From Gammaproteobacteria bacterium (GTDB lineage Bacteria; Pseudomonadota; Gammaproteobacteria; Steroidobacterales; Steroidobacteraceae), in NCBI GenBank assembly GCA_025359205.1, contig JANYHD010000039.1:144292-178107 (forward strand): a stretch of 33,816 nucleotides of DNA, written 5' to 3'. Positions 1-24,084 of the stretch are shown here, one piece after another. Under the pieces are notes generated by a model. The model made no database searches. It was not told where the DNA came from and worked only from the letters and a program-made list of their open reading frames with translations. Within the stretch, counting starts at the first letter, position 1. Every line of letters starts with the position of its first letter. A program made the translations under genes and the position numbers.

Positions 1-26
1 ACCATCGTTAGACCGCCGTGTAACTG

Positions 27-2645
27 GTGCGCGTACTGACTACCCGACGCGGCGCGCGACACGCGGTCGCCTTCATCGTCGCCGCTATTCTGTGCGGCAT
101 CACCACCCGCGCAACCGCCGCACAAATGGGCGAGCCGCTCAAGGCGGGCTCGAAAGCGCAATCCAGCGAAGCCAAGGCGGCAGCCGCTGAATTTGAAATA
201 TGGGACGCGAAATGGCGTGAGATCCAGGGCGCCAACGACAAGGTCGACTGGATCGATCATTTCCGCGTTTGTGCGATCAAATTCCGCTATCGCAACTACG
301 ATGAGTTGTTCCGTTGCCTTGATCTCTTCGAGACCAAGATAGCCAGGGGCGACCTCAAGAAGATCAAGCACGTCAGCGTTGACGAGCTGCGTCCGATGCT
401 GCTCAAGGTGGCGCCCGTGCTGACCGGCTGGTTACGCACTTCGGCGTATGCGGAGCTGGGCGAGCCGGAGCTGGCATTGAAATGGGCGGAGTCCGCCTGG
501 GACGCGCTGCCCGAGGACTTTCGCCAGACCAAGCGCTCGTGGATGGGTGGGCAGAAGCAGGATGATTTTTCCGGTATCGCCGTGACCATTGGCGGCTATA
601 CCGGGCGCGACGAGGAAATGACCTTTGTCGGTCGCGACAACCCGGCCGGTCTCGACCTGCGCGGAGAGACGATCGCAATGAGCCTGGCCGCACAGCGCGC
701 TCTGCTATACGCCCGCGCTGGCGAGATCGAAAAAGCCAAGGTCGCGCTCGAGGCCCTGCGCAAATGGCAGGACCTGCGGAACAAGGACTCGATGCTCATG
801 CTGTTTCCGACCGGCGCGCCTTTCAAGACGGAGTCGCAGTTGCTGTCCATCGGTCCGCTCTACGCGATGGGTGATTACGCGGGTGTCATCAAGACTTACG
901 ACGAAGCCGCGGCCGCGGTTGCCAGGAAGAGACACTGGCACGAGTTTCGAACCATGCTCGTCTACCTGTGGCCGCCCGATTGGGTCTACGCGCCGCTGGA
1001 CAAACTGGTCATGAAGGCGTTCACGGCCGCCGACGCGCGGCTGTTCGCTGTGGCCATCGAAGATGTCTCCAATTCACTGGTCTACGCCGAGAGCCTGGCG
1101 CACACCGGCAAGACAGACACAGCGCGTGCGATGCTCGATACGATGCTGGCGCTGCCCGAGATTCGTGCGATGGGGAGCCTCTACTGGGCAACGCTTTACC
1201 AGCGCGGCCTGATCGCGCGGCAACAAGGCAAGCGCGATGACGCGATCAGGTATCTGACGCAATCAGTGGCGGCCATTGAAAACGTGCGCAGCACGATCGC
1301 TTTCGAGGCCGCCAAGATCGGCTTCGCCGGCGACAAGCAAGCAGTCTATGCCGCGCTGGTGGCGGCGTTGGCTGACAGAGGTGACTGGAACGAAGCCTTC
1401 CTGATTGCCGAGCGCGCCAAGGCGCGCTCACTGGTCGATCTGCTCGCGCAGCGCCGCGATCTCGCGCCGCCGCCTGCTGTCGACGACAAAGTGCGCGAAC
1501 TGTTCGCGAGTGCGGCGACCGTGGACGCGGGTACCGGCCTTCCGGAAAGCGAGGCCGCCGTGCGCGGCATCACCCTGGTGGCCGAGTCGCGCACTGCGCT
1601 GGCCAGCAGCGCACCCGAGGCCGCGTCGCTGGTTTCCGTGCAACAAGTCTCGATCGCCGACATCGCCGCACGCATGGCGCCGGGCGAAGCATTGATCGAT
1701 TACTACAGCAGCGGCGATGATCTTTATGGCCTGGTGCTGAACGGCACGACCGTCAAGGGTTACAAGCTGGCGGGCCGGGGCCTGGCGGAAGAGGTCCGCG
1801 CCTACCGCGATGCCATCGAACGGCGCGAACCCGGCGCCGCCGCCCTGGGGCGACCGCTGTACGATCGGCTGATCCGTCCGCTCGCGAGCCAGCTCAAGGG
1901 CAACAAGCTCACCATTTCCCCCAATGGCGTTTTGCACTACCTGCCCTTCGACGCGCTGATGGATGGCGACCAGTATCTGCTCGATTGTTTCAGCCTGCGG
2001 CTGATTCCCAGCGCCGGCACACTCGCGTACCTGAAGACCGATCACCCCAGCAAGGTCGGCAAGCTGCTGGCGCTAGGCAATCCCGACCTCGGTAACCCGG
2101 CCTACGATTTGCCGAACGCGCAGGTCGAGGCGGTCAATGTTGCGGCCCTGTTTCCCGATTCGCGTGCGCTGGTGCGCGCCGGCGCCAACAAGACGGCGAT
2201 CCGCGAGCTGGGCAACGGTTTCTCGATGCTGCACTTTGCCACGCACGGCAAATTCAATTCCGATTCGCCGCTGGCATCCGGGCTTTACCTGGCGAAAGGC
2301 AATGAGGCGGATGGCGTGCTGACGGTGGGCGACCTGTACTCGCTGCGTTTCGATGCCGAGCTGGTCACGCTTTCGGCGTGCGAGACGGGCCTCGGCAAGG
2401 TGGCCAACGGCGATGACGTGATCGGACTGACGCGCGGCTTCCTGTATGCCGGCGCACGCTCTATCGTCGCCAGCCTGTGGGAGGTCGACGACGCGGCCAC
2501 CGAGCAGCTGATGCTGAGTTTCTATCGCAATCTGGCGGGCCACGACAAGCGCGAAGCGCTGCGGCTCGCGCAGATCGAGACGCGCGGCAATTTTCCACAA
2601 CCCATGTACTGGGCGGCGTTCCAGATCGTAGGCCGCGCCGACTGA
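27..2645 (+). CDS. Exported TPR-CHAT caspase-like protease
   Basis: 872 residues from a GTG codon. An in-frame TAA lies two codons upstream, so the frame cannot extend further; no clear ribosome binding site is visible. Residues 1-32 look like a Sec signal peptide (basic start, hydrophobic AVAFIVAAIL core, Ala-rich end), implying export to the periplasm. Residues about 60-490 are helical TPR-like repeats ending in a stretch typical of CHAT proteins (GDWNEAFLIAERAKARSL). The C-terminal third is the CHAT domain (caspase HetF associated with TPRs): HFATHG supplies the expected catalytic His (about H740) and LSACETG the expected Cys (about C785), followed by GFLYAGARSIVASLWEVDD. Both dyad residues are present, so protease activity is plausible. 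CHAT family members are clan CD peptidases, often activated through their TPR part. It is first in a three-gene exported set; the next ATG is 65 bases after the stop. Substrate unknown. Confidence 0.93.
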   Translation: MRVLTTRRGARHAVAFIVAAILCGITTRATAAQMGEPLKAGSKAQSSEAKAAAAEFEIWDAKWREIQGANDKVDWIDHFRVCAIKFRYRNYDELFRCLDLFETKIARGDLKKIKHVSVDELRPMLLKVAPVLTGWLRTSAYAELGEPELALKWAESAWDALPEDFRQTKRSWMGGQKQDDFSGIAVTIGGYTGRDEEMTFVGRDNPAGLDLRGETIAMSLAAQRALLYARAGEIEKAKVALEALRKWQDLRNKDSMLMLFPTGAPFKTESQLLSIGPLYAMGDYAGVIKTYDEAAAAVARKRHWHEFRTMLVYLWPPDWVYAPLDKLVMKAFTAADARLFAVAIEDVSNSLVYAESLAHTGKTDTARAMLDTMLALPEIRAMGSLYWATLYQRGLIARQQGKRDDAIRYLTQSVAAIENVRSTIAFEAAKIGFAGDKQAVYAALVAALADRGDWNEAFLIAERAKARSLVDLLAQRRDLAPPPAVDDKVRELFASAATVDAGTGLPESEAAVRGITLVAESRTALASSAPEAASLVSVQQVSIADIAARMAPGEALIDYYSSGDDLYGLVLNGTTVKGYKLAGRGLAEEVRAYRDAIERREPGAAALGRPLYDRLIRPLASQLKGNKLTISPNGVLHYLPFDALMDGDQYLLDCFSLRLIPSAGTLAYLKTDHPSKVGKLLALGNPDLGNPAYDLPNAQVEAVNVAALFPDSRALVRAGANKTAIRELGNGFSMLHFATHGKFNSDSPLASGLYLAKGNEADGVLTVGDLYSLRFDAELVTLSACETGLGKVANGDDVIGLTRGFLYAGARSIVASLWEVDDAATEQLMLSFYRNLAGHDKREALRLAQIETRGNFPQPMYWAAFQIVGRAD

Positions 2646-2697
2646 ACTTTCCGTGGTGTCGCATCGACCCATGGCCATGCGTAGAACAACAATGAAC

Positions 2698-2706
2698 GGG
2701 AGAGGG
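2698..2706 (+). promoter_or_regulatory. Ribosome binding site of the cytochrome-type gene
   Basis: A purine-rich GGGAGAGGG lies four bases before the ATG at 2711. It supports that ATG as the start of the second gene of the exported set. Confidence 0.7.
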
Positions 2707-2710
2707 ATTC

Positions 2711-5125
2711 ATGCAGCCATTTAAATCGGTGGTGATCGGCACTTCTCTTGTCGCGTGGTTCATCGCCGGCGCCCTGGCCACCGATGCGCCGACGGCAACA
2801 CTGAACATTGAACACCTCGTGCATTTTCAATCTGCCGAAGGCGCTGATCTGGTGCTTGCCAGTGGCCGCTACAGCGTGGAAGCCGCAATGCCCCAGGGCA
2901 TGCGCCTCAGCGCCGCAAAAGGCAAACCGGTGATCGTCCCGGCGACGGTCGCGACGCATGAGGAGCAGCTCGCGCAACCGCTGGCGTTGATGCTGGCGGT
3001 AGGCGCAGATGAACAGCACCTGATCCTGATGCTACCCGATGGCATGCGGCTCGAGGCCATCGGCTCACTGAGCGGCGTCCGCTCGCGCGGTTTGGCGCCA
3101 GGCCCGGGCATGGTTTCCAATGTGGCCCTCCAAGCCGCAGTGATGCAGCTGCAACCCGCACCCGTGATGGCCCCTGCGCCTGCGCCAGCGCCCGCACCGA
3201 TGCCCGTAGTGCAGGCGCCCGTCGCCGCCGTTCAGGCGCCGCTGGCCGTGGCGCCTCCGGTGGTCATGATGCCTCGACCTTCGCTCATACCAACGGCGGG
3301 ACCGGCACCGACCGGCGTCACCGTGAATGGCACGCCGCTGGTCGCGTACCTCTCCTGGAACGCAATGCCCGACGCTGTGCGCTATGCGGTCTGGCGCGGC
3401 GACGGCCCGAACCTTTCGGTAGAGCGCACACCGCCTGGATTCACCGGCACGCAGTTCCAGGATGTGGTGCCCGACCCGCGTCTCGCGTATCGCTACGCGA
3501 TCGTTGCGTACTATCCCAATGGCACGTCGGCGGAAGCGCCAGTGGTGCAGTTTGTCTCGCCGCCGATGATCAATCCGGCGGGGTTCACAGCTCAGCACAC
3601 AGGCAATGGCAGGGTTCAGTTCAATTGGCAGGCTGTGCCGGGGGCAATGCAATATCGGCTGGACGGACCAGGGGCACCAAACACCGGCGTGTTTGTGAGG
3701 GATACGAACACCGTTCTGGATTCCGTTCCCCTAGGCCCAGATTCCTGGCGTCTGGTCGCCATGTACCCTGGAAACTATGCTGACTACCCAGGAGCGTCAA
3801 TTGCCTCGACCGTGGTTCGGGTGCTACCTCTGCATAGTCAAGCGTGGCTCTCCAAGACTTACAACGTGCCGGGCCTGGGGCAACTGTTTCAGGTCCAGAC
3901 GCCTGCACACCAGGAGATCAATGACACCACAGGAGCGAGCGCCGTTGGCAACCGGAGTGGCGACCTCATGCCGGCTTATGAATCGAATTACGCCTTATGG
4001 CTCGGTCAGCACTACGGTTGGTCGGACTCTAACGTTAATGCCAGCTGTGGTCCTTGCGCCAGCGCCTTCCGATTCGACGTCGGCACTTACGATCAGGTCA
4101 GCAGCACATATATCGCCAGTCCTGAATGCGTATTCGTGGCTGACGTTTTCTCTTCGCCCTGCCAAATCCCCGGCCTGCGAGTTTGGCTCAATACAAACAC
4201 TCCGCTCTGGAATCAACCGGAACAAGCTTCACGTGAGGTAGTCTACGGAAATCCCGGCGATCTCGGAGTTGGGCGGCGCGCCTATTGTGAACAGAAATTG
4301 CGGAGTGCGCCCGAGCCGGGCAATTTCACGGTAGTGCCAGGCATCTACACGGTCTGCTACGCCACAGCCCACGGTGCCAAACCCGGTGAGCCTGGGTTCA
4401 ACGATCCGTATGCCATCAGGAATCCGAACGCAGGGACCGGCGCGGACTTCATCCTGTCAATGGTGATCACCAAAGATCAAAGTGGAACGGTGTTTCTCGT
4501 CTTGGGCCGTGGTAATACGGTGTTCAACACTGCTTATACGCTTTTGCCCACCGTTGGGCTGGACACTGAGGGCCAGAAGCCGTTGCCCTTTGTGTGCATG
4601 TCCTGTCACGGCGGCAAATACAACCCCAATACCCGCAAAGTGGATGGCGCGTCATTCCTGCCGCTAGATCCGGAGTTGCTCGCGTTCGCGAACGATGCAG
4701 AACAGGCCGCACAGGAAGAGAAGATCAGAAACATAAACCTGATGATCCACAACTCCGATCCGCGCTCGGCGATTGGGGCGTACATACGCGGGTTATACAA
4801 CGGCGCCCTGGGCCAGCCCGGCGCGCGCGCGCAACCGGACTTTGTGCCCGCGGGGTGGGCACCGCAGGCGGGGTTCTATCGCCAGGTCGTGCGGCCCTAT
4901 TGCACGATGTGCCACCTCGCCCAGCCGGGTGGAAAGGACTCCTACAACTTCGCGTCCTGGGATAACTTCCAGGGTAATAACGGCGCAATCTATGGTTCGG
5001 TGTGCGCGCAGCACACGATGCCGCACAGTGAGCTGCAATACAAAGCGTTCTGGACCAGAGACACCGGAGCGTTGTATCTGCCCGGGCTGCTGGCGTGGAC
5101 GCTGGGTTTCCCGAGTTGTCCGTAG
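2711..5125 (+). CDS. Secreted modular protein: shared N-module, FN3-like domains, two CXXCH haem motifs
   Basis: 804 residues. Residues 1-23 are a signal peptide ending ALA. Residues about 30-147 form a module also found at the start of the next gene; it ends in RSRGLAPGPGMVSN and NVALQAAV. A Pro/Ala-rich linker follows (about 150-200). Two fibronectin type III-like segments come next (about 200-285 and 290-375; for example LSWNAMPDAVRYAVWRG and FNWQAVPGAMQYRL). The C-terminal half has no family I recognise but holds CMSCH (from residue 629) and CTMCH (from residue 731), both standard c-type haem attachment motifs, which suits a periplasmic or exported location. Axial ligands and any redox role are not evident. 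The middle (roughly 3590-4560) uses many codons rare in the neighbours (AGG, CTA, GGA, CCA), hinting at mosaic origin. Seven bases separate its stop from the next ATG, so co-transcription is likely. Confidence 0.88.
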   Translation: MQPFKSVVIGTSLVAWFIAGALATDAPTATLNIEHLVHFQSAEGADLVLASGRYSVEAAMPQGMRLSAAKGKPVIVPATVATHEEQLAQPLALMLAVGADEQHLILMLPDGMRLEAIGSLSGVRSRGLAPGPGMVSNVALQAAVMQLQPAPVMAPAPAPAPAPMPVVQAPVAAVQAPLAVAPPVVMMPRPSLIPTAGPAPTGVTVNGTPLVAYLSWNAMPDAVRYAVWRGDGPNLSVERTPPGFTGTQFQDVVPDPRLAYRYAIVAYYPNGTSAEAPVVQFVSPPMINPAGFTAQHTGNGRVQFNWQAVPGAMQYRLDGPGAPNTGVFVRDTNTVLDSVPLGPDSWRLVAMYPGNYADYPGASIASTVVRVLPLHSQAWLSKTYNVPGLGQLFQVQTPAHQEINDTTGASAVGNRSGDLMPAYESNYALWLGQHYGWSDSNVNASCGPCASAFRFDVGTYDQVSSTYIASPECVFVADVFSSPCQIPGLRVWLNTNTPLWNQPEQASREVVYGNPGDLGVGRRAYCEQKLRSAPEPGNFTVVPGIYTVCYATAHGAKPGEPGFNDPYAIRNPNAGTGADFILSMVITKDQSGTVFLVLGRGNTVFNTAYTLLPTVGLDTEGQKPLPFVCMSCHGGKYNPNTRKVDGASFLPLDPELLAFANDAEQAAQEEKIRNINLMIHNSDPRSAIGAYIRGLYNGALGQPGARAQPDFVPAGWAPQAGFYRQVVRPYCTMCHLAQPGGKDSYNFASWDNFQGNNGAIYGSVCAQHTMPHSELQYKAFWTRDTGALYLPGLLAWTLGFPSCP
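3053..3151 (+). repeat. Copy 1 of duplicated module end
   Basis: These 99 bases (codons 115-147 of the cytochrome-type gene) match 5496-5594 at 89 of 99 positions, including a 35-base identical run at 3080-3114. The encoded peptides match at 31 of 33 residues. The wider module upstream is clearly related in protein sequence but much more diverged. Confidence 0.95.
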
Positions 5126-5132
5126 GACCAAC

Positions 5133-7403
5133 ATGAAAAACATATGCGCGATGATTGTGGGTCTCTGCCTCGGCGTACTCGCAGGCAGCACTGCGCTCGC
5201 GGCCGAGGCGACGCCGCCCGCCATGTCGCCATCGCCAGCCAGCCTGGCTGTTGACAGGGCGCTGCATTTTCTGGCACCGGACGGAACTGATGTCTTGGTC
5301 GAGCGTGGCGACTACATGCTGGTGCCTGACTCCGGCGGCGGACTGCGGCTGAGTGCGCCAAGCGGGAAATCGATCCGCGTTCCCGCCATGACCGCGAGCC
5401 ATATCGAACACCTGACGGAGTCGCGCGTGCTCATCGTGCCCGCAGGCGATGACGAGCGGCATCTGGTGCTGCTGCTGCCCGACGGCCAGCGGCTGGAAGC
5501 CATCGGTTCATTGAGCGGCATTCGCTCGCGCGGTTTGGCGCCAGGCCCGGGCATGGTCTCCAATGTGGCCTTGCAAGCCGCAGTGCGGCAGCTGCCGCCC
5601 GTGCAGATTATCGCCGCCGCGCCTGCCCCGGTACCGATGCCGGTAGCGATCATTCAGGGTCCGGCCGTCATGTTGATGCCGGCACCACCTGCGGCCTACG
5701 CGGGACTGAACGGCTGGGTGGACCTGCACACGCATCCGATGGTCAACCTCGCCTTCGGCGGCAAGCTGATCCAGGGCGGCGTGGACATCGGTTCGCTGCT
5801 GCCGACGGATACGTCATGCCGACGCTGGGTTCGTGCCGCTTCGATGCCCGAGGCTCTGAGCGATGATCGGCCCACGCATGGCGGATGGAACCTGATCGAC
5901 TTCCCCTGCGGCGACGCCTTGCGCCCGCTGATCATTCAGGGCCTGCAGGAAGGGAACGAGGGCGCGCTGGTCACGGCGGGACCTGGCATGCCGCCGGCGC
6001 GTGGCTTCCCCGATTTCGCGCAATGGCCGGCGTGGAACGACATTACGCATCAAAAGATGTGGTGGGAGTGGATCCGGCGTGCGCGCGACGGCGGGCAGCG
6101 TGTGATGGTCGCGCTCGCCACCAACAACCGTACGCTGGGCGATGCGGTGTCCGGACCTGGCGATGGCGCAACTGACGACAAGTACTCCGCGGATCTGCAG
6201 CTGGCGGAAATGAAAGCTTTGGTTGCGCGCCACAACGATTTCATGGAGGTGGCGCTGAGCGCAGCAGACCTTGAGCGCATCGTTCGATCGAACAAGATCG
6301 CGATCGTGCTGGGCATCGAGATCGACAACATCGGGGACTTCAACGCGCTGCCAGCGGCCGGCCGCGAGCAGATGCTGCGACAGATCATTCCGGGCGAAGT
6401 GCAACGTCTCTACAATGAAGGCGTGCGCTACGTCTTCCCGGTGCACGTCGTCGACAATCTATTCGGCGGCACCGCGATCTACCAGGACACCTTCAACACC
6501 GCCAACTACCGCGAAACCGGGCACTTCTGGTTCGTGGAATGCGCCGACAAGAGCGACGGCATCGACCATCAATACAAGTTGAGCAATGACCTCGCGCTCA
6601 CCGCCGCGGCGCTGGTCAAGCTGGGCCTCGATCCCTGGCGCAAGCCGGGACCGCCGCCGGTCTGCCCGCCGCCGGGTCAACCGCAGAAAGGCATCGGGCA
6701 TCGCAATGCATTGACACTGACGAACCTTGGTGCTCTTTTGATCAAGGAATTGATGAGACGCGGCATGCTGATCGATATCGACCACATGTCGCAGAAGACC
6801 GCAAACGCAACGCTGAGCATTGCCGAGAACATGCCCGGCGACGGTTACCCGCTCATTTCCGGTCACAGCGGCATCCGCGGCGTCGCCGGTGCGAACGCCG
6901 AGAACAGCCGCTCGCCGGAGCAATTGCGTCGCATCAGCCGCTTGCACGGCATGTTCGGGCTCGGCACGGATGGCGTGCATGCTTCCCAGTGGGCGCTGAA
7001 TTACCAGTCCGCCATGGAAAAGATGGGTTACCTGAACTCCGGCATCGCCAATTACCAGAACGGCGCCATCTCGTTTGGCACCGATCTGAACGGACTCGTC
7101 AAAGGTCCGGTGCCGGGAGGGCCGCAGAACCGCGTGGTTTACGATGCGTCGTTTCCGCCCAGCTCGGTCACCGGCTCGGCCAAGACCTGGAACTACAATT
7201 CGGAAGGCGTCGCTCATTACGGAATGCTGTCCGATTTCCTGCACGACGTGCACACCATGCCGGCTAACAATCACATCAACGGCCAGGGCGTTCCCACGGG
7301 GATTACTGGCGCTGATCTTGTGGATCAGCACCTGTTTCGCAGCGCCGATTATTTCTGGCATATGTGGGAGCGGTGCGAGGCGCAGAGCGCCAACGTCCAC
7401 TGA
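5133..7403 (+). CDS. Secreted M19/renal-dipeptidase-like metallohydrolase with shared N-module
   Basis: 756 residues from the ATG at 5133; TAGGA just upstream may be the ribosome binding site. An open frame extends further upstream through the previous gene, but only this start gives a signal peptide (residues 1-23, ending ALA). Residues about 35-154 are the module shared with the previous gene, followed by a Pro/Ala-rich linker. From about residue 190 the protein resembles peptidase family M19 of the amidohydrolase superfamily: DLHTHP (H199, H201) as first metal motif, VFPVHVVDN, LIDIDHMS (D550, H551), LISGHSGIRG (H578) and FGTDLNG (D651, matching the conserved GxDFDG of M19). It is far longer than classical M19 dipeptidases (about 330-400 residues), with insertions around residues 210-330 and 460-520. 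A metal-dependent peptidase or amidase acting outside the cytoplasm is likely; the substrate is unknown. It ends 15 bases from the convergent ntrX. Confidence 0.87.
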   Translation: MKNICAMIVGLCLGVLAGSTALAAEATPPAMSPSPASLAVDRALHFLAPDGTDVLVERGDYMLVPDSGGGLRLSAPSGKSIRVPAMTASHIEHLTESRVLIVPAGDDERHLVLLLPDGQRLEAIGSLSGIRSRGLAPGPGMVSNVALQAAVRQLPPVQIIAAAPAPVPMPVAIIQGPAVMLMPAPPAAYAGLNGWVDLHTHPMVNLAFGGKLIQGGVDIGSLLPTDTSCRRWVRAASMPEALSDDRPTHGGWNLIDFPCGDALRPLIIQGLQEGNEGALVTAGPGMPPARGFPDFAQWPAWNDITHQKMWWEWIRRARDGGQRVMVALATNNRTLGDAVSGPGDGATDDKYSADLQLAEMKALVARHNDFMEVALSAADLERIVRSNKIAIVLGIEIDNIGDFNALPAAGREQMLRQIIPGEVQRLYNEGVRYVFPVHVVDNLFGGTAIYQDTFNTANYRETGHFWFVECADKSDGIDHQYKLSNDLALTAAALVKLGLDPWRKPGPPPVCPPPGQPQKGIGHRNALTLTNLGALLIKELMRRGMLIDIDHMSQKTANATLSIAENMPGDGYPLISGHSGIRGVAGANAENSRSPEQLRRISRLHGMFGLGTDGVHASQWALNYQSAMEKMGYLNSGIANYQNGAISFGTDLNGLVKGPVPGGPQNRVVYDASFPPSSVTGSAKTWNYNSEGVAHYGMLSDFLHDVHTMPANNHINGQGVPTGITGADLVDQHLFRSADYFWHMWERCEAQSANVH
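5496..5594 (+). repeat. Copy 2 of duplicated module end
   Basis: Second copy of the 99-base block described at 3053-3151, here codons 122-154 of the M19-like gene. The 35-base identical core is at 5523-5557. Both copies end right before a Pro/Ala-rich linker, so the block marks a domain boundary. Confidence 0.95.
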
Positions 7404-7418
7404 TCACCGCGCAAGGCG

Positions 7419-8771
7419 TCAATCGTCCGCGGCGTGGCTGATCTCGATGCCGAGTGAGCGGAGCTTGCGGTACAGATGCGTGCGTTCCATGCCGACGCGC
7501 TTGGCGAGCTGGCCGACCTTGCCGCCGCACAGCTGCAGCTGCTGCTGCAGGTAGGCGCGCTCGAAGTGCTCGCGCGCTTCGCGCATCGGCAGCGCGAGCA
7601 GGTCCTGCTTCACCAGCGGCGCGTCGATCGGCGCCTGCGCCGCCAGCTCTCGCTCCACTTCCTCGAGCGAGATCTCCTCCGCGCCGCCGCGCAGCAGGAG
7701 CCGGCGCAGCAGGTTGCGCATCTCGCGCAGGTTGTCGGGCCAGGGGTAGTTGCGCAGCCGGTTCTGCGCCGCGACGCTGCAGCGGCGGAACTGCAGGTTC
7801 TCGCCCTGGGTGAGCTGGTCGACGCATAGGCGCAGCAGGTCAGGCACGTCCTCGGCGTATTCGCGGAGCGGTGGCACGCGCAGCGGCAGCACCGCGAGCT
7901 GCGCGTACAGGTCACGGCTCATGGTGGCGCCGCCGGCGCGGTTCTCGATGCCCGGCAGCGCCGTGGCGATCACGCGCGCGTCGAACTTGACGCTCGCGCC
8001 ATGGCCGCCGCGCGCATAGCTGCCGCCTTCGAGCACCCCGGCCAGCAGCCGGCGCGCGGTCTCGGGCAGTTCCTCGATGTCGCCGGTGTAGAGCGTGCCG
8101 CCCGCCGCCTGCTCGAGCAGGCCCGCGTGGCCGTTCGCGCCCAGCAGCGCGCCCACCGCCTGGTCATCCTGCAGCGCGCGCGGATTGCAGCTCACGAAAG
8201 GTCCGCGCTCGCGCGGACCCGACTGGTGCACGAAGCGCGCCCGCGACTCGGTCTCGCTGCCGGGCTCGGCGATCAGCAGCAGTGGCGCGGGATAGGGCGC
8301 CAGGCGCAGCAACTCGCTGCGCAGCTGCAGCGCCGTGCGGCTGCGGCCGTGGAGCGGCGCCTGCGCGCGCGCGGCAGCGTAGCCGCCCGCTTGGCGCGTG
8401 CGGCGCGCGTCGAGCGCGCGCTTGACCGTGGGCAGGAGCTTGGCCAGCGAGAGTGGCTTCTCGATGAAGTCGAAGGCGCCCAGACGCGTCGCCTCGACCG
8501 CGGTTTCCACCGTGCCGTGCCCGGACATCATCACCACTGGGCAGTCATGGCGCGCGTCGCTCGACCATTCGCGCAGCAACGTGATGCCGTCGGTGTCGGG
8601 CATCCAGATGTCGAGCAGCACCAGGTCGGGCGCGGAACGGGCGCGTGCGGCGCGCGCCTGCGCGGCATCGGCGGCGACGTCGACGTCGTGACCTTCCTCG
8701 CTGAGGATCTCCTGCAGCAGGCGGCGGATGTCCGCCTCGTCGTCAACCACGAGTATCCGGCTTGCATTCAT
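7419..8771 (-). CDS. ntrX: NtrX-like response regulator with degenerate AAA+ domain
   Basis: 450 residues, cytoplasmic. Residues 1-120 are a complete receiver domain: acidic pair D10/D11, phosphoacceptor D54 in LLDIWMPD, and K105 in FIEKPL. Residues about 145-380 align with the sigma-54 activator AAA+ domain but the key motifs are gone: the Walker A position reads AEPGSETE without the GK pair, the GAFTGA loop is absent, the Walker B position reads GGTLYTGDIEELP instead of GGTLFLDEI, and the second arginine of the FRxDLYYRL region is Gln. The end keeps a Fis-type helix-turn-helix (LAKRVGMERTHLYRKL). It should still bind DNA and receive phosphate from NtrY, but is unlikely to hydrolyse ATP or activate sigma-54. 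Its ATG overlaps the ntrY stop (ATGA). Family assignment rests on context and residual similarity. Confidence 0.9.
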   Translation of the reverse strand: MNASRILVVDDEADIRRLLQEILSEEGHDVDVAADAAQARAARARSAPDLVLLDIWMPDTDGITLLREWSSDARHDCPVVMMSGHGTVETAVEATRLGAFDFIEKPLSLAKLLPTVKRALDARRTRQAGGYAAARAQAPLHGRSRTALQLRSELLRLAPYPAPLLLIAEPGSETESRARFVHQSGPRERGPFVSCNPRALQDDQAVGALLGANGHAGLLEQAAGGTLYTGDIEELPETARRLLAGVLEGGSYARGGHGASVKFDARVIATALPGIENRAGGATMSRDLYAQLAVLPLRVPPLREYAEDVPDLLRLCVDQLTQGENLQFRRCSVAAQNRLRNYPWPDNLREMRNLLRRLLLRGGAEEISLEEVERELAAQAPIDAPLVKQDLLALPMREAREHFERAYLQQQLQLCGGKVGQLAKRVGMERTHLYRKLRSLGIEISHAADD

Positions 8772-10966
8772 GCCCGTTCCCTCCGCAACTCCGTGCGCTT
8801 GCCTGTCGTGGCCGGCAGCAGCACGCGGATGCGCGCACCGCCGGTAGCGAGGTTTTCGGCGCTGATCCGGCCGCCGTGTTCCTCCACGATACGCTGGACG
8901 ATCGCCAAGCCCAAGCCCGTGCCGCGCGCCTTGCTGGTGACATAAGGATCAAAGGCGCGCTGGAGGATATCCTCGCGGAACCCGGGCCCGTTGTCACTGA
9001 CTGTGATTTCCGCCTGCGCCGGCTTCAACGTGCGCAGCCAGCGGGTGCGGACCGTAATGGCGGCGCTGGTGACCCCGGCCAGGGCCTCGATGCCGTTGCT
9101 CAGCAGGTTGGCGAGGATCTGGCGCACCCGGCCCCGGTCGGCCTCAATCTCCGGCAGCTGCGGGTCGAGCTCCATGACGATACTGACGCCTGGGTCCTGC
9201 AGGCGGTAGAGCTCGACCACCTCGGCGGTCAGCTGGTTGAGGCTGAACTGCGCCAGCTGCACCTCGGGCGCGCGGGCGTATTCGCTGAAGGCGTTGACCA
9301 TCTGCTTCATGGCGTCGACCTGCTGCACGATGGTCTTCGTGCCCCGCTCGAGCAGCCGCGCGTGCTCGGTGTCCAGGCCCGGCAGGAGTTTGCGCCGCAG
9401 CTGCTCGGCCGAGAGCTGGATCGGTGTGAGCGGGTTCTTGATCTCGTGCGCCAGGCGCCGCGCCACCTCCCCCCAGGCTGCGTTGCGCTGCGCATTGAGG
9501 AGCGCCGTGATGTCCTCGAACACGATCACCAGGCCCGGATCGTCGCTCTCGTCCGGGAGCGGCGTGCAGGCCCACAGCAGCACGCGATTGCCGGCCTCGT
9601 CCTTCAGCGCCAGCTGTTCGCGCCATTCGCGCCGGCCCGCGCCGAAGCGCGCGCGCAGCGCAGTCACGAACTCGCCCAGCAGCGGCGCCGCGCCGGCGGC
9701 GGCCGTGAGGCTCTGGCCGACCATGGCGGCCAGGTCGCCGCCGAGGATCGCGCCCGCCGACTGGTTGGCGCTGCGTAGCTGCAGCTGTGCGTCGACTACC
9801 AGCACGCCGCTCGACAGGCGCGAGAGGATCACCGCCAGCCGCTCGCGCTCGCGCTCGGCCGCCTGGCGGCCCAACGCTGCCTCTTCGCTGGTGCGCCGCA
9901 GCCGCTTGGTCATGTCGTTGAACGAGTGCACCAGGAATCCCATCTCATCGCGCGACGGCAAGGGCAGGCGCGTGCCGAAGTCGCCCTTGCCGACGGCGCG
10001 CGTGCCCGCGATCAGGTCCTTCACCGGCCGCGTGAGCCGCTGCGCCGACCAGACCGCGCCGTAGACCGCGGCCAGCATCGTGATCAGCAGCACCAGCGTG
10101 AGGGTCATGATGAAGTTGATCTTGAGCGGCTCGCGCGTCGCCGACATGTCGCCGTAGTTCGAATAGGCGGCCTGCACTGCGTCAGCAAGCCCGGATAACT
10201 CCGTAGGCACGTCGTAGTTGATCACCACGAAGCGACCGGGCGGCACGCGCGCGGCCCGCGCCAGCAGCGCGGCGGTCACGACCGTGGCGTGCCCGGCGCT
10301 GGCCGGTTGCAGCGCGAAGTAGCTGTGGCCGGCGGCGATCTGCAGCCGCGCTTCCGCCGGCGGCGGCGTCGGCAGCGCCGTGGTCGCGTTGGCGCTGCTG
10401 AAGGTCAGCACGCGTCCGCCGGCATCGTAGACGCTGACGTCGGCGGCCTGCGCCGCGCGCCGCTCGGCATCGAGCCGCACTGCCAGGTCGGGGCCGCTCA
10501 GCGCAGCGATGGCGTGCGCGAAATTCTCGGTGCGGCGCGACTGCTCGTGCACGCGCAGTTCGAGCGCCGAGCGCGACAGCACCAGCGCGTCGTTCAGTCC
10601 CTGCTTGATCTCGATGCGGAACCAGCTGTCGATGCCGTAGTTGAGAAACTCAAGCGCAAACAGGTAGACGATCAGCAGCGGCACCACCACCAGCGTGCCG
10701 AACATGCTGACGGTGCGTACCGTCAGGCGCGAGCCGGGCACGTGGTCACGGAAGTCGCGGTACAGCTGCCACAGCTTGCGCGTCAGCAACACGCCCAGCG
10801 TGAGCATCGCGCAGATGTTGAGCAGCAGGATCCACGGCTGGCGGCGATTGAAGTCGGCGGAATTCTCGGCGCTATGCGCCAGCAGCAGCAACGCCCACAC
10901 GCCCGCGCCGCAACCGAGCAGCGTCAGGGCGCGAAAACCCCAGCGTTTCAGCGTACGAGGGTCCAT
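8768..10966 (-). CDS. ntrY: NtrY-type membrane sensor histidine kinase
   Basis: 732 residues from the ATG at 10966; a longer in-frame start exists but would read deep into the upstream gene. Transmembrane segments lie near residues 12-30, 45-60 and 85-108, with a fourth around 290-312, enclosing an extracytoplasmic sensor region. A HAMP domain follows (LTRPVKDLIAGTRAVGKGDF), then a coiled linker, a PAS domain, and the HisKA domain with H507 in RRLAHEIKNPLTP. The ATPase domain has an N box (ILANLLSNGIEAL), G1 (VSDNGPGF) and G2 (GTGLGLAIVQRIVEEHGG). It is an NtrY-class kinase expected to phosphorylate the NtrX-like regulator downstream. Its start lies 19 bases inside the DUF4390 gene and its stop overlaps ntrX by four bases, so translation of the three is probably coupled. 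The signal sensed is not evident. Confidence 0.96.
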   Translation of the reverse strand: MDPRTLKRWGFRALTLLGCGAGVWALLLLAHSAENSADFNRRQPWILLLNICAMLTLGVLLTRKLWQLYRDFRDHVPGSRLTVRTVSMFGTLVVVPLLIVYLFALEFLNYGIDSWFRIEIKQGLNDALVLSRSALELRVHEQSRRTENFAHAIAALSGPDLAVRLDAERRAAQAADVSVYDAGGRVLTFSSANATTALPTPPPAEARLQIAAGHSYFALQPASAGHATVVTAALLARAARVPPGRFVVINYDVPTELSGLADAVQAAYSNYGDMSATREPLKINFIMTLTLVLLITMLAAVYGAVWSAQRLTRPVKDLIAGTRAVGKGDFGTRLPLPSRDEMGFLVHSFNDMTKRLRRTSEEAALGRQAAERERERLAVILSRLSSGVLVVDAQLQLRSANQSAGAILGGDLAAMVGQSLTAAAGAAPLLGEFVTALRARFGAGRREWREQLALKDEAGNRVLLWACTPLPDESDDPGLVIVFEDITALLNAQRNAAWGEVARRLAHEIKNPLTPIQLSAEQLRRKLLPGLDTEHARLLERGTKTIVQQVDAMKQMVNAFSEYARAPEVQLAQFSLNQLTAEVVELYRLQDPGVSIVMELDPQLPEIEADRGRVRQILANLLSNGIEALAGVTSAAITVRTRWLRTLKPAQAEITVSDNGPGFREDILQRAFDPYVTSKARGTGLGLAIVQRIVEEHGGRISAENLATGGARIRVLLPATTGKRTELRRERA

Positions 10967-11526
10967 GTGTACCAGTCGCTGGTGCGATGCCAGGCGTTGG
11001 ACCAGAACATCAGCGCGCGCAGCGCGTCGGGCATATGGCCGCGGCGCACCCCCGCGCGCAGCGCGATCTGCCACTGGCCGTCGCCATGCAGCTGCGAGTC
11101 GACCGCGATCGGCCATTCCTCCACGGCACCGACGCTGGCGAGCGCAGCCTCAAGCGTCGGAAAGGATTCCTGCGTGCCGGTATCGACATCGCGCAGCAGG
11201 TAGCGGTCGGTGACCACGTGGTAGGTGAGTTCGCGGTGCCGCACCAGGTCGACCGCCTCCGCGTCGAACCAGAAGCGGCGGTGGCGCGTCAAGATGCACT
11301 CGAGATCGAAGCTCAGCGTCACGCCGTCCCTGAGCGAGGCGCTCAGCAGGTCGCTCCCCGGATAGGCGACGCGCGCGCTCAGCATGATGACGCCGCGGCT
11401 GGGCACGGCATACGCGGAGCGGATCTCGAGCTCGCCATCGAGCGGATCCTCGGCCTGCGCCAGGCCCACGGTGGCCCAGGCCATGACGGCGGCGACTATC
11501 GGCAGCGCTTTGCGCAAGCTAAGCAT
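10948..11526 (-). CDS. DUF4390 family exported protein
   Basis: 192 residues from the ATG at 11526, which shares its A with the TAA stop of rsmB (TAATG). This overlap, and the signal peptide that then begins the protein (basic MLSLRK, hydrophobic core, AQA cleavage site near residue 25), favour it over an upstream in-frame start. The mature part matches the DUF4390 pattern: an early beta-strand-rich region (ARVAYPGSDLLSASLRDGV), then a basic/aromatic HRRFWFDAE and TYHVVTDRYLLRD, and an end with WSNAWHRTSDWYTWTL. The function is unknown. The family usually sits directly before ntrY, suggesting an envelope partner of the sensor; that role is inference from context. Confidence 0.88.
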   Translation of the reverse strand: MLSLRKALPIVAAVMAWATVGLAQAEDPLDGELEIRSAYAVPSRGVIMLSARVAYPGSDLLSASLRDGVTLSFDLECILTRHRRFWFDAEAVDLVRHRELTYHVVTDRYLLRDVDTGTQESFPTLEAALASVGAVEEWPIAVDSQLHGDGQWQIALRAGVRRGHMPDALRALMFWSNAWHRTSDWYTWTLVR

Positions 11527-12896
11527 TAACTGAGCGCCTGAGGCGCCTCCCCCTCTTTCTGCAGGCAAGCATAATAGAAGCCGTCGCCGGCCGCCCCCGG
11601 CAGCAATTGCCAGCCTGGCTCACAGGAGTGGAGTGGCAAATGGCGCAAGGGTTCCGGAACCGGCAGTACGCTGGCGCCGGGCGTGGCCGCGAGGAACGCG
11701 CTCACCACGGTTGCGTTCTCCGCCGCCAGCACCGAACAGGTGGCGTACAGCAGCCGTCCGCCGCGCCGCAGCAGCGGCCAGCAACCGCGCAACAGTTCCG
11801 ACTGGCGCGAGGCAAAACCGGCGATGTCGGAGGCGCGGCGCAGCAGCTTGATGTCCGGATGGCGGCGGATCACGCCGGTGCCCGAACAGGGTGCATCCAG
11901 CAGGATGGCATCGAAAGGCACGCCATCCCACCAGGCCGGCGGCGCGCACAGGTCGGCTTGCACGAGCCGGGCCTCGCGTCCCAGCCGCCGCAGGTTGTCC
12001 GCGACGCGGGCCAGCCGCACGCCATCGCTGTCCACGGCCGTCAGCGCGATCGGGCCGCCCGCCATCTCGAGCAGTGCACCGCTCTTGCCACCGGGCGCCG
12101 CGCAGGCATCGAGCACGCGCTCACCGGGACGCGGGGCCAGCCACGCCGCCGCCAGCTGCGCGCTTGGATCCTGCACCGAGACGCGTCCCTCGGCGAAGCC
12201 AGGTATGTCTGTCACTGGCAACGCCAGTGCGAGCATCGCTGCCGTCGGCACGCCCGGCACGCTCTCGGCGTGCAATCCGCGCGCGGCGAGCTCCTGCAGG
12301 TAAGCGGCAATGCTGGTGCGGTCGATGTCAACGCGCAGGCTCAGGGGCGGATGCCCGTTATTCGCCGCAAGCAGCCGCTCGAGCTCTTCCGGCCAGGCGG
12401 CCCGCAGTGCGGCCACCAGCCAATCGGGATGGGCGTGGCGCGCCGCCAGGTCGCGATCGACCGCCCCCAGCAGGGCCACGTGCTCGCGCAGGAAGCGGCG
12501 CAGCACGGCGTTGACGAGCCCCGCCGCGCGCTCAAGCCCGAGGAGCCGCGCCGCATCGACCGCCGCAGCCACCGTGGTCGCACTCGCATGCGCGGAATAT
12601 TCCAGTTGATGTGCAGCGCAGACCAGCAGCGAGCGCAGCTTCGCGTCGGTTTGCGCACCTGGACGCGCCAGCAGTGGCAGCACCGCGGGCGCCAGGCGCA
12701 GGTACCAGCGCAGCGTGCCCAGTGTGACGGCCTGCACCGCTGCGCGTAGCGGATCTTGCGGCTTCCCCGCCAGCGCCGCCTCGGCGCTCTGGCCCTCGCC
12801 CAGCACCGCGGCCACCGCGCGCGCCGCTGCGCTCAGCACCAGCGCGGCAGTGCCAGGCGGCCGCGCGCGCACGGGTGCACTGCGGTTGCTACTCAT
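11526..12896 (-). CDS. rsmB: 16S rRNA m5C967 methyltransferase RsmB
   Basis: 456 residues, close to the usual family length. The N-terminal part (about 15-150) is the NusB-like RNA-binding domain. The C-terminal part is the Rossmann-fold methyltransferase: the S-adenosylmethionine loop ACAAPGGKSGALLE, the motif IV Cys at C337 in LLDAPCSGTGVIRRHPDI, and the catalytic motif VI Cys at C387 in LLYATCSVLAAEN. These two cysteines define the RNA m5C methyltransferases: one forms the covalent adduct at C6 of cytosine, the other helps release. The target is C967 of 16S rRNA by family assignment. The gene starts 5 bases after the fmt stop and overlaps the DUF4390 start by one base. Confidence 0.97.
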   Translation of the reverse strand: MSSNRSAPVRARPPGTAALVLSAAARAVAAVLGEGQSAEAALAGKPQDPLRAAVQAVTLGTLRWYLRLAPAVLPLLARPGAQTDAKLRSLLVCAAHQLEYSAHASATTVAAAVDAARLLGLERAAGLVNAVLRRFLREHVALLGAVDRDLAARHAHPDWLVAALRAAWPEELERLLAANNGHPPLSLRVDIDRTSIAAYLQELAARGLHAESVPGVPTAAMLALALPVTDIPGFAEGRVSVQDPSAQLAAAWLAPRPGERVLDACAAPGGKSGALLEMAGGPIALTAVDSDGVRLARVADNLRRLGREARLVQADLCAPPAWWDGVPFDAILLDAPCSGTGVIRRHPDIKLLRRASDIAGFASRQSELLRGCWPLLRRGGRLLYATCSVLAAENATVVSAFLAATPGASVLPVPEPLRHLPLHSCEPGWQLLPGAAGDGFYYACLQKEGEAPQALS

Positions 12897-21999: not shown

Positions 22000-24084
22000 T
22001 CAGCTCTCAGGCAGCTTCATCTTGCGAACCAGCGCCCGGAAGCGCGGGTCGCCGCGCAGCGGCGCGTACAGCGCGTTGACGTTGATCCAGCGAGCACCGG
22101 TATCGCGCTCGCGGTAGGCGCGCTCCAGCCAGGTCACAGCAGCAGCGACATCGTGTCGGTGGCCGTAGACCTCCGCGATCTGCGCGGCCGCCGTGTCGGC
22201 GTAGCGGCTGCGCAACTCGGCCAGCGCCGCATCGGCGTCGGCGCGCCGGCCCTGCGCATCGGCGAGAATCGCCCGGCCGGTCAGCCGGTACCACTGCGCC
22301 GGCTCGGCTTCGAACAGGGGACCTGCCAACTCCGGGTGTCCCTGGGCCAGCGTGGCCAGGCCGAGCAGGTAGTGGACCTTGACCTGCTGTGGATTGATGC
22401 GCTCGGCCGCGCGCAGCATGGGCAGTGCGTCGTCGTAGCGCCCGACATTGGTATAGATGCTGCCCAGGACCATGCGGGCGCTGGCGCGCAGCGGATCGAC
22501 CGTGAGCGCTTCCTGCAGAAGCTCGATGGCGCGGTCGCGTTCGCCGAATACAAAAGCAAGCATCGCGGAAAATTCCAGCGTGGCGGGATTGTGCGGATCG
22601 GCCGACAACGCGAGCTGCAGTTCAGAACGGGCGACGGGCCAGTCGAAATCATAGGAACTGGCGAGCAAGGCCAGCACGTTGTGCCCTTCCGGCATGCGCG
22701 GATCGAACTTGAGCGCCTCGCGAGCCGCTGCGCTCGCGCGCGCGCTGGTTTCCGCCACCGCTGAATTGCCGAACTGGGCATCCCAGGCATAGGCGGAAGC
22801 CAGCGCCGCCCAGGCCGCCGCGTAATCGGGTTCGCGCTTAAGGGCCTGCTGGTAATAGTCCATGGCCGTATGGACGTCGGCCACGGTGGCGCGTCCGGCA
22901 AAGAACCGACCCTGCAGGTACAGGTTGTGCGCGTCGGCATTAACAGGCCTGGCGGGCTGAGCGGCCGCGGCCGCGCCCGATTGCAAAGTCGCGTTGAGTT
23001 CACCGGCAACCGTATTGGCGATTTCATCCTGCACCCTGAACACGTCCGTGAGCTTGCGATCGTAGGTCTGCGACCACAGGTGCGCGCCGTCGGAGGCACG
23101 AATCAGCTGCGCGGTGATCCGCATCGCCGTGCCCGCCTTGCGCACGCTCCCCTCGAGCAGATGCGCCACGCCAAGCGCGGCGGCAATCGTGCGCATGTCT
23201 TCGTTCTTGCCCTTGAACGCGAACGACGAAGTGCGCGCGATAACCTTGAGCGCGGGATTGTGCGCAAGATGATCGATGAGTTCCTCCGACAATCCGTCGG
23301 AGAAATATTCCTGGTCGTGCTTTTCGCTCATGTCCACGAACGGCAGCACCGCGATGGACTTGTCCGCCGCGGCCGTTGCTACAGCGACGCCAGTGCCGCT
23401 GCCAGCGCCGGTGGGCACAGCACTGTTGGCGCCGGCAGCGCCACTGGCGCCCTGCTGCGCGCGCATCCGCCACGCCTGCCAACCAATTGCTGCCAACACC
23501 AGCACGGCAGCGGCGATCACCACCGCCAACCAACCCGCGCTCTTGCGCGGCGCGGCGGCACGCGGCATTGGCATCGCCGTCCGCGGCGTCGTCGCGTGCG
23601 GCATCCCACCTGCTGGTGTTGCGGGCGTTGCAGCGGCCGGCGTGTTCGCCAGGCCGCCAAGGAGTGAGGCGATATGACTGCTGAAATCCGCGGGCGTGGC
23701 GCCATGCGGCAGCCGCGTCCACTGCACCTTGAGGAAGGACTCGGGTACATCCCCACCACTGTCAGGTGTGTTGTCAATGCACACCGGAACGATGAAGGTC
23801 CGATTGCGCGCCACGCGATGGCTGCGCTGGTCGGCCAGATCCCACTCCAGCCGGAAATAGCCCTCGGGCCGCGAGGCCGTGTTGGCAGAGATGATCGGCA
23901 CGAACAACGCGCAGTCGCGGATCTGTTGGCGGATGCGTTGGTCCCAGGCATCCCCGCCGCGCAGCTCGCTCAGGTCGAACCAGACCTCGATCCCCGCAGC
24001 ACGCAGCGACTCGCAGATGCTGCGCGCCGCCACGGCATCCTGCGAGGCATAGCTCAGGAATACGGCTTTGCCCGTCTCGCTCAT
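22000..24084 (-). CDS. TIR domain-transmembrane-TolB-like-TPR protein
   Basis: 694 residues. Residues 5-145 are a TIR domain (KAVFLSYASQDAVAARSI, GIEVWFDLSELRGGDAWD, LFVPIISANTASRPEGYF) with E80 in YFRLEWDLA at the position of the NAD-hydrolysing Glu of bacterial TIR proteins. A Pro/Ala/Thr linker leads to one transmembrane helix at about 184-203. Residues about 242-365 resemble the TolB/FlgO-like N-terminal region seen in TPR regulators and adenylate cyclases (SIAVLPFVDMS, FSDGLSEELIDHLA, HLLEGSVRKAG, LWSQTYDRKL). The rest (about 375-690) is TPR repeats. A single helix puts TIR and TolB-TPR parts on opposite sides of the membrane, TIR presumably inside. The gene follows the acid phosphatase gene by 19 bases. 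Whether TIR is an NADase or only a binding module cannot be told from sequence. Confidence 0.9.
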   Translation of the reverse strand: MSETGKAVFLSYASQDAVAARSICESLRAAGIEVWFDLSELRGGDAWDQRIRQQIRDCALFVPIISANTASRPEGYFRLEWDLADQRSHRVARNRTFIVPVCIDNTPDSGGDVPESFLKVQWTRLPHGATPADFSSHIASLLGGLANTPAAATPATPAGGMPHATTPRTAMPMPRAAAPRKSAGWLAVVIAAAVLVLAAIGWQAWRMRAQQGASGAAGANSAVPTGAGSGTGVAVATAAADKSIAVLPFVDMSEKHDQEYFSDGLSEELIDHLAHNPALKVIARTSSFAFKGKNEDMRTIAAALGVAHLLEGSVRKAGTAMRITAQLIRASDGAHLWSQTYDRKLTDVFRVQDEIANTVAGELNATLQSGAAAAAQPARPVNADAHNLYLQGRFFAGRATVADVHTAMDYYQQALKREPDYAAAWAALASAYAWDAQFGNSAVAETSARASAAAREALKFDPRMPEGHNVLALLASSYDFDWPVARSELQLALSADPHNPATLEFSAMLAFVFGERDRAIELLQEALTVDPLRASARMVLGSIYTNVGRYDDALPMLRAAERINPQQVKVHYLLGLATLAQGHPELAGPLFEAEPAQWYRLTGRAILADAQGRRADADAALAELRSRYADTAAAQIAEVYGHRHDVAAAVTWLERAYRERDTGARWINVNALYAPLRGDPRFRALVRKMKLPES

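Follow-up and report, generated by a model that had tools for sequence, protein, structure and literature searches.

Genes and features of the locus

The window, by which we mean the whole stretch of 33,816 bp that was analysed, starts inside a gene cluster, and the rest of the locus was read in the piece of the same contig to its left (L005, contig bases 124500–144400). Near the left end of the window are three consecutive genes on the same strand, designated A, B and C, at the coordinates originally given; the gaps are 65 bp between A and B and 7 bp between B and C. The start of the operon appears to lie to the left of the window, since a fourth gene, X, reaches as far as window base 11 and leaves 15 bp to A. 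Divergent from this row are three further genes, whose products are an ECF sigma factor, a protein of only 187 residues and a caspase. The features, in order along the contig, are as follows.

L005 17103 to 14992, divergent: gene for an exported C14 caspase–DUF4384 protein (start chosen by us)
L005 17717 to 17154, divergent, on the same side as the sigma gene: gene for a 187-aa protein, with a 4-bp overlap with the sigma gene
L005 18379 to 17714, divergent from X-A-B-C: ECF sigma factor gene (Sigma70_r2 E 2.6e-15, Sigma70_r4_2 E 5.9e-14)
L005 18415–19803, continuing into window 1–11, forward: gene X, of which only the last bases are in the window
Window 27–2645, forward: gene A, TPR-CHAT caspase-like protein, 872 aa
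About 1845–2633, forward: CHAT domain of A, residues 607–869 (Pfam CHAT E 4e-70)
2244 and 2379, forward: putative catalytic codons of A, His740 and Cys785, from motif reading
2711–5125, forward: gene B, modular protein of 804 aa, exported as judged by eye
2780–3154, forward: shared module in B, residues about 24–148 (blastp with C, E 3e-37)
3035–3154, forward: segment of B near-identical to C at the DNA level, a probable gene-conversion tract (partner 5478–5597)
3155–3310, forward: Pro/Ala-rich linker of B, from the sequence, limits set by eye
4223–5122, forward: two-CxxCH domain of B (CMSCH 4595–4609, CTMCH 4901–4915)
5133–7403, forward: gene C, modular protein of 756 aa, exported as judged by eye
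5232–5597, forward: shared module in C, residues about 34–155 (blastp and alignment)
5700–7400, forward: M19-like metallohydrolase domain of C (Pfam Peptidase_M19)

The description of A as a TPR-CHAT protease with an intact His/Cys dyad is borne out by a PF12770 score of 236.9 bits (cutoff 24) and by the motifs HFATHG at residues 736–741, containing His740, and SACETG at residues 783–788, containing Cys785. The TPR matches are weak and fall below their Pfam cutoffs, and against the Csx29 model (NCBIfam NF041237) A scores 34.1 bits, where the cutoff is 300. CHAT domains as such are present in 40 of the 98 genomes around the source genome in a PF12770 search. All three proteins of the row had been credited with signal peptides; these were judged by eye, and A is on this footing apparently exported.

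Among the upstream genes, the sigma factor has both Sigma70_r2 and Sigma70_r4_2 over their cutoffs and 97.2 bits for TIGR02937 (sigma70-ECF; cutoff 42.9). The adjoining 187-aa protein has one hydrophobic helix, as seen by eye, and no Pfam or NCBIfam match over threshold; a weak resemblance of its C-terminal region to the subtilase prodomain (E 0.085, 13.7 bits) lies below the cutoff of 21. From its position and its single helix it is most likely the anti-sigma factor of its neighbor. The caspase matches C14 (E 2e-27 and 96.7 bits against a cutoff of 21.4) and DUF4384 (E 2e-17) and has both catalytic motifs, SGHG for the histidine and DSCHSG for the cysteine. X is a protein of 462 aa with repeats rich in Tyr, Pro and Thr, with a start chosen by us and an export signal judged by eye, and its C-terminal region is weakly DUF4384-like (Pfam E 0.032, below cutoff). 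A search of the region between the sigma gene and X for ECF promoters gave one pattern match, on the minus strand and inside the 5′ part of the sigma gene, and promoter and terminator scans of window positions 1–7600 gave fewer sites than shuffled sequences.

Part of this arrangement recurs in a related genome (G058), where a full-length relative of the caspase (45%) lies beside a second caspase and a homologue of X (50.5% identity, E 2.5e-55). Neither a CHAT gene nor a sigma gene occurs in the overlapping stretches of that genome that were read (L086 and L132), its CHAT gene sits on another contig, and the genome has no match to the shared module or to the M19-like domain. One of these stretches (L086, 8938–14061) contains two tandem C14 caspases, one of them with Sel1 repeats, together with the X homologue and an adjoining gene for an autotransporter beta-domain. 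Elsewhere in the window, at 22000–24084 on the minus strand, there is a gene whose product combines a TIR domain (TIR_2, E 7e-21) with TPR repeats, possibly a signalling or defence protein, in surroundings that otherwise appear by eye to be housekeeping.

Two modular proteins and their common N-terminal module

B and C are alike at their N-termini and different beyond, as had been noticed from the sequence. Residues 1–190 of B align with residues 1–185 of C at 45% identity (E 3e-37), covering the module and the linker, and blastp aligns nothing else apart from one match of 11 residues (E 3.5). The start of C is taken as the ATG at 5133; the longer reading from a TTG at 4773 would run into B and can be dispensed with.

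The C-terminal regions are also of the kinds proposed. In B the two CxxCH motifs are present, CMSCH at residue 629 and CTMCH at residue 731, and both are kept in all nine aligned rows (B and eight homologues; the alignment leaves out L062 of genome G106, which covers the module, and L064 of G216, which covers the middle region). B has no significant Pfam or NCBIfam domain and scores 13.1 bits with Cytochrome_CBB3, below the cutoff of 27, while one of its homologues (L055) passes PF00034 with 25.7 bits (cutoff 21.3). The region of B after the linker reads by eye as Ig/FN3-like, with no Pfam match. C exceeds the cutoff for Peptidase_M19 (52.9 bits against 26), and the residues His199 and His201 (as HxH), Glu396, His551, His578 and Asp651 are kept in 13 of 13 rows of an alignment of C with 12 homologues, which leaves out a 366-residue protein (L042), a cut-off one (L050) and loci that repeat the same protein (L048, L051–L053). 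The first metal-binding motif of classical M19 enzymes is HxD. C resembles peptidase family M19 (membrane dipeptidase) in its Pfam score; it and its homologues depart from that family in having HxH throughout the 13 rows and in being large exported proteins with varied N-terminal parts.

In a sample of 321 genomes of the class, with whole proteins as queries and at most three candidates scored per genome, C matched in 9 genomes and B in 11, both counts taking in the query genome. Homologues of the M19-like kind are large and exported, and their N-terminal regions vary; eight plasmid records match C, all in the M19-like part only. In one genome (G208) three M19-like exported proteins of this family are encoded in a single 10-kb stretch (L071, 6159–16709), interleaved with genes read by eye as hydrolases.

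The module itself is rare within the genomes searched. Among 98 relatives the only real members are the two copies of the source genome. Candidates in four relatives (E 5e-4 to 8e-3) were rejected; re-checking two of them (L007, L010) gave no match, and in the other two (L008, L009) the matches are confined to unlike proteins with Pro/Ala-rich stretches. The class sample of 321 genomes yielded one further member, from G106, whose frame of 323 residues matches B at E 7e-9 and carries a third, unlike kind of C-terminal region. A profile search of 398 genomes of the phylum and five genomes of the order of G106 added no new member, nor did plasmids; as the profile was built from three sequences, remote members could have escaped it.

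Structural comparison was of little help. The best match of the module among solved structures has an E value of 0.43, the predicted models are too poor for use (beta-rich with mean pLDDT 51 for the module, mean pLDDT 34 for C), and a fold search with structure models returned nothing at E 0.001 or better. A DNA pattern for the module recovers both window copies and has a single match among the loci collected outside the source genome, on a viral contig; this match, the only one among the viral contigs, is a 51-residue frame and not the module. Exact short-pattern scans (A in genome contigs, B and the module in viral contigs) gave no relative, and such scans are insensitive, as a similarity search with A did find many relatives.

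The resemblance between the two copies is unevenly distributed. In the segment comprising residues 109–148 of B, 36 of 40 residues and 104 of 120 nucleotides are identical to C. At fourfold sites the identity is 22/25 in this segment and 12/36 over the rest of the alignment (Fisher p 2e-5), and a direct repeat of 286 nt also reflects the near-copy of the module. Since the silent-site identity is confined to one stretch, it points to gene conversion, or to constraint at the DNA level, rather than to selection on the protein alone, and the most alike part of the module is probably a gene-conversion tract. A near-identical module of this sort can mislead, in that the silent sites point to gene conversion and not to a conserved tag.

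Sigma genes beside CHAT genes in related genomes

CHAT genes related to A adjoin ECF sigma genes far more often than gene density predicts. Used as query against the 98 genomes, A gives 33 matches, spread over 22 of them besides the source genome; these define 31 loci (L075, L089, L092 and L104–L131), all of which were examined, and the count covers the matches of A. A sigma gene lies within 3 kb of the CHAT gene in 19 of these loci, from 14 of the 22 genomes, where the density of PF08281 genes in those genomes would lead one to expect 0.88; PF04542, searched in 60 genomes, gives similar gene numbers. The sigma profile behind this count was built from loci of the present study and is partly trained on the loci counted, and the related genomes are not independent of one another. 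With Pfam Sigma70_r2 as the yardstick, 15 of the 19 are over the cutoff, two are just below it (L092, L112) and two have no match (L109, L128). No sigma gene is nearby in the remaining 12 loci, some of which are on short contigs. Sixteen comparison loci (264 kb) contain no sigma gene, a weak control given that about one would be expected by density; these were chosen for matches to M19, CxxCH, the module or the caspase, two of them overlap (L086 and L132), and two (L087 and L088) hold another CHAT protein.

On a tree of the CHAT proteins the confirmed sigma neighbors are scattered, requiring 12 changes, of which 8 are forced by starred branches, and shuffling the labels gives as much clustering as is observed. 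In 11 of the 15 confirmed cases the sigma gene is followed by a small gene with a strong hydrophobic helix, under a liberal rule that takes the best of several frames, and the one in L124 has a sub-threshold match to zf-HC2. S8 subtilases occur in 6 of the 31 loci (the search seeds came from three of these; L089, L092 and L110 are Pfam-confirmed). A C14 caspase near the CHAT gene is found in only one of the 31 (L123), which makes the pairing of caspase and CHAT genes seen in our locus an unusual one. A simple pattern detects both dyad motifs in 16 of 34 CHAT genes.

Two other groups of loci may be mentioned. L092, L105 and L107 have a conserved gene order, in which one or more CHAT genes, a subtilase and an ECF-like sigma gene are followed by a small gene; with the simple pattern, no SAC.T cysteine motif is detected in the CHAT proteins of these loci. 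In L087 (9757–13978) and L088 (5478–9785), from two genomes of one genus (G087 and G074), a C14 caspase is directly beside a shorter CHAT-matching protein (frames of 752 and 746 residues).

The association of ECF sigma factors with CHAT genes is not wholly new, being partly in print for the group ECF54. In the passages of PMC8999054 drawn on here, which cite Casas-Pastor et al. 2021, the ECF54 context includes carboxypeptidase, subtilase and CHAT genes, and proteolytic control is proposed with no anti-sigma factor; the corresponding passages of a second ECF review (PMC8103513) do not mention ECF54. Title and abstract searches found no exported CHAT–sigma system in the literature, which means little as the ECF54 review itself surfaced through other terms. 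The present locus is best read as a variant of the kind already noted around ECF54, in which ECF-linked exported proteases are combined with module-bearing envelope proteins. It shares with ECF54, as presented in those passages, the sigma gene, the CHAT and subtilase context and the proposal of proteolytic control (PMC8999054). It differs in that a likely anti-sigma factor adjoins, whereas ECF54 is described without one, in that the second protease is a C14 caspase, and in that the host looks gammaproteobacterial from its gene content where the example tabulated for ECF54 is Geodermatophilus (PMC8999054).

A possible envelope-signalling island

The order of the genes, their domains and the intact catalytic motifs of A and the caspase are plain from the sequence. 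To account for them we propose, with a probability of about 0.5, that A, B and C make up the downstream portion of an island of exported proteases under ECF control, with the anti-sigma factor being cut and with B and C acting as envelope effectors. One side of the island would comprise the ECF sigma factor, the likely anti-sigma factor of 187 aa and the exported C14 caspase–DUF4384 protein, and the other side X, A, B and C. The sigma factor would drive the island; on an envelope signal either the caspase or the CHAT protein would cut the periplasmic part of the anti-sigma factor, and the sigma factor would thereby be freed. B, with its haem-c-like CxxCH motifs, and C, as a metallohydrolase, would be the envelope effectors, with one module placed on different C-terminal domains. 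The module may be an envelope anchor, and docking to the CHAT protein is a minor possibility. A fuller cascade, amounting to a Craspase-like circuit in the envelope, in which the exported C14 and CHAT proteases together cut the periplasmic domain of the membrane anti-sigma factor, free the sigma factor and switch on the module-tagged B and C, with processing of these two at RSRG as well, seems to us quite improbable.

Two known systems are instructive for comparison. In type III-E CRISPR, Csx29 cleaves Csx30, an inhibitor of the ECF-like factor CASP-sigma (PMC10028731), and Csx30 is the only CHAT substrate named in the literature passages covered. The present locus is similar, going by the passages used, in having a TPR-CHAT protease, an ECF-type sigma factor and its inhibitor as a candidate substrate (PMC10028731), and differs in that there is no Csx29 match over the cutoff, no repeat array nearby, and the proteins appear to be exported. 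The parallel with Craspase had been drawn in the original prediction in connection with the module as a possible recognition tag; in that form it finds no support, and it holds instead in that the neighboring genes include one for an ECF sigma factor and one for its likely inhibitor. The RseA/DegS pathway, as treated in part of the same paper (PMC10028731), offers a second likeness, namely a likely membrane anti-sigma factor with an extracytoplasmic part, encoded in the company of an ECF sigma factor and of exported proteases; here the proteases are a caspase and a CHAT protein and not DegS, and the pathway is predicted from the genes alone.

It was initially suggested that the module may serve the CHAT protease as a docking or recognition tag and that the protease would cut the linker and release the C-terminal enzymes. 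Several features of the locus are compatible with this: the genes are adjacent, on the same strand and apparently exported, the CHAT dyad is intact, a flexible linker follows the module in both B and C, and a basic stretch, RSRG, common to the two lies between module and linker. If this were its role, module proteins should be neighbors of CHAT genes. The sole further member, in G106, lies on a contig of 16,419 bases in which no CHAT gene is detected at E 1e-8; a single example is thin evidence, and it leaves the tag without support. In addition, at E 1e-5 no two neighbors in any of the 31 other CHAT loci have an N-terminal module in common (two subtilases alike in the protease region are the sole related pair inside a locus), the best-conserved part of the module is probably the product of gene conversion, and the linkers are devoid of Lys, Arg, Asp and Glu with the exception of Arg189 of B. 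We consider docking unlikely. A tentative but appreciably stronger candidate is that the module has nothing to do with proteolysis and serves as an envelope anchor or binds a partner; B and C would then be ordinary exported enzymes that sit in the operon for co-regulation and owe their likeness to duplication followed by gene conversion. The localised silent-site identity and the unlike C-terminal region borne by the G106 module fit this, as do the quite different N-terminal regions that M19-like and CxxCH domains bear elsewhere, in stretches of which none of the eight tested (L067–L074) holds a CHAT gene; against it, there is no known ligand or partner, and the module model (mean pLDDT 51) is poor.

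It is also conceivable, and to our mind very improbable, that the island serves defence or cell death in the manner of CRISPR-Craspase or of caspase effectors. CHAT proteins and C14 caspases do occur in such systems, and the upstream caspase matches the PADLOC caspase model (E 4e-26), with 67.5 bits for NCBIfam caspase_w_EACC1 (below the cutoff of 140). However, A reaches 34 bits where the Csx29 model demands 300, none of A, B, C and X has a PADLOC match, and the only direct repeats in window positions 1–12000 and L005 12000–19901 are of two copies. Membership of the Craspase class was accordingly rejected, the Csx29 cutoff not being reached and no CRISPR array being present in the ranges scanned. 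Moreover, the proteins look exported, whereas Craspase is RNA-activated.

Control of the island by an ECF sigma factor through proteolysis of its anti-sigma factor is thus the reading we prefer. If the sigma neighbors of exported CHAT proteins are functional partners, the anti-sigma-like protein would be a concrete first candidate for a CHAT substrate, and, if the proposal is true, caspase-like proteases would be linked to envelope signalling.
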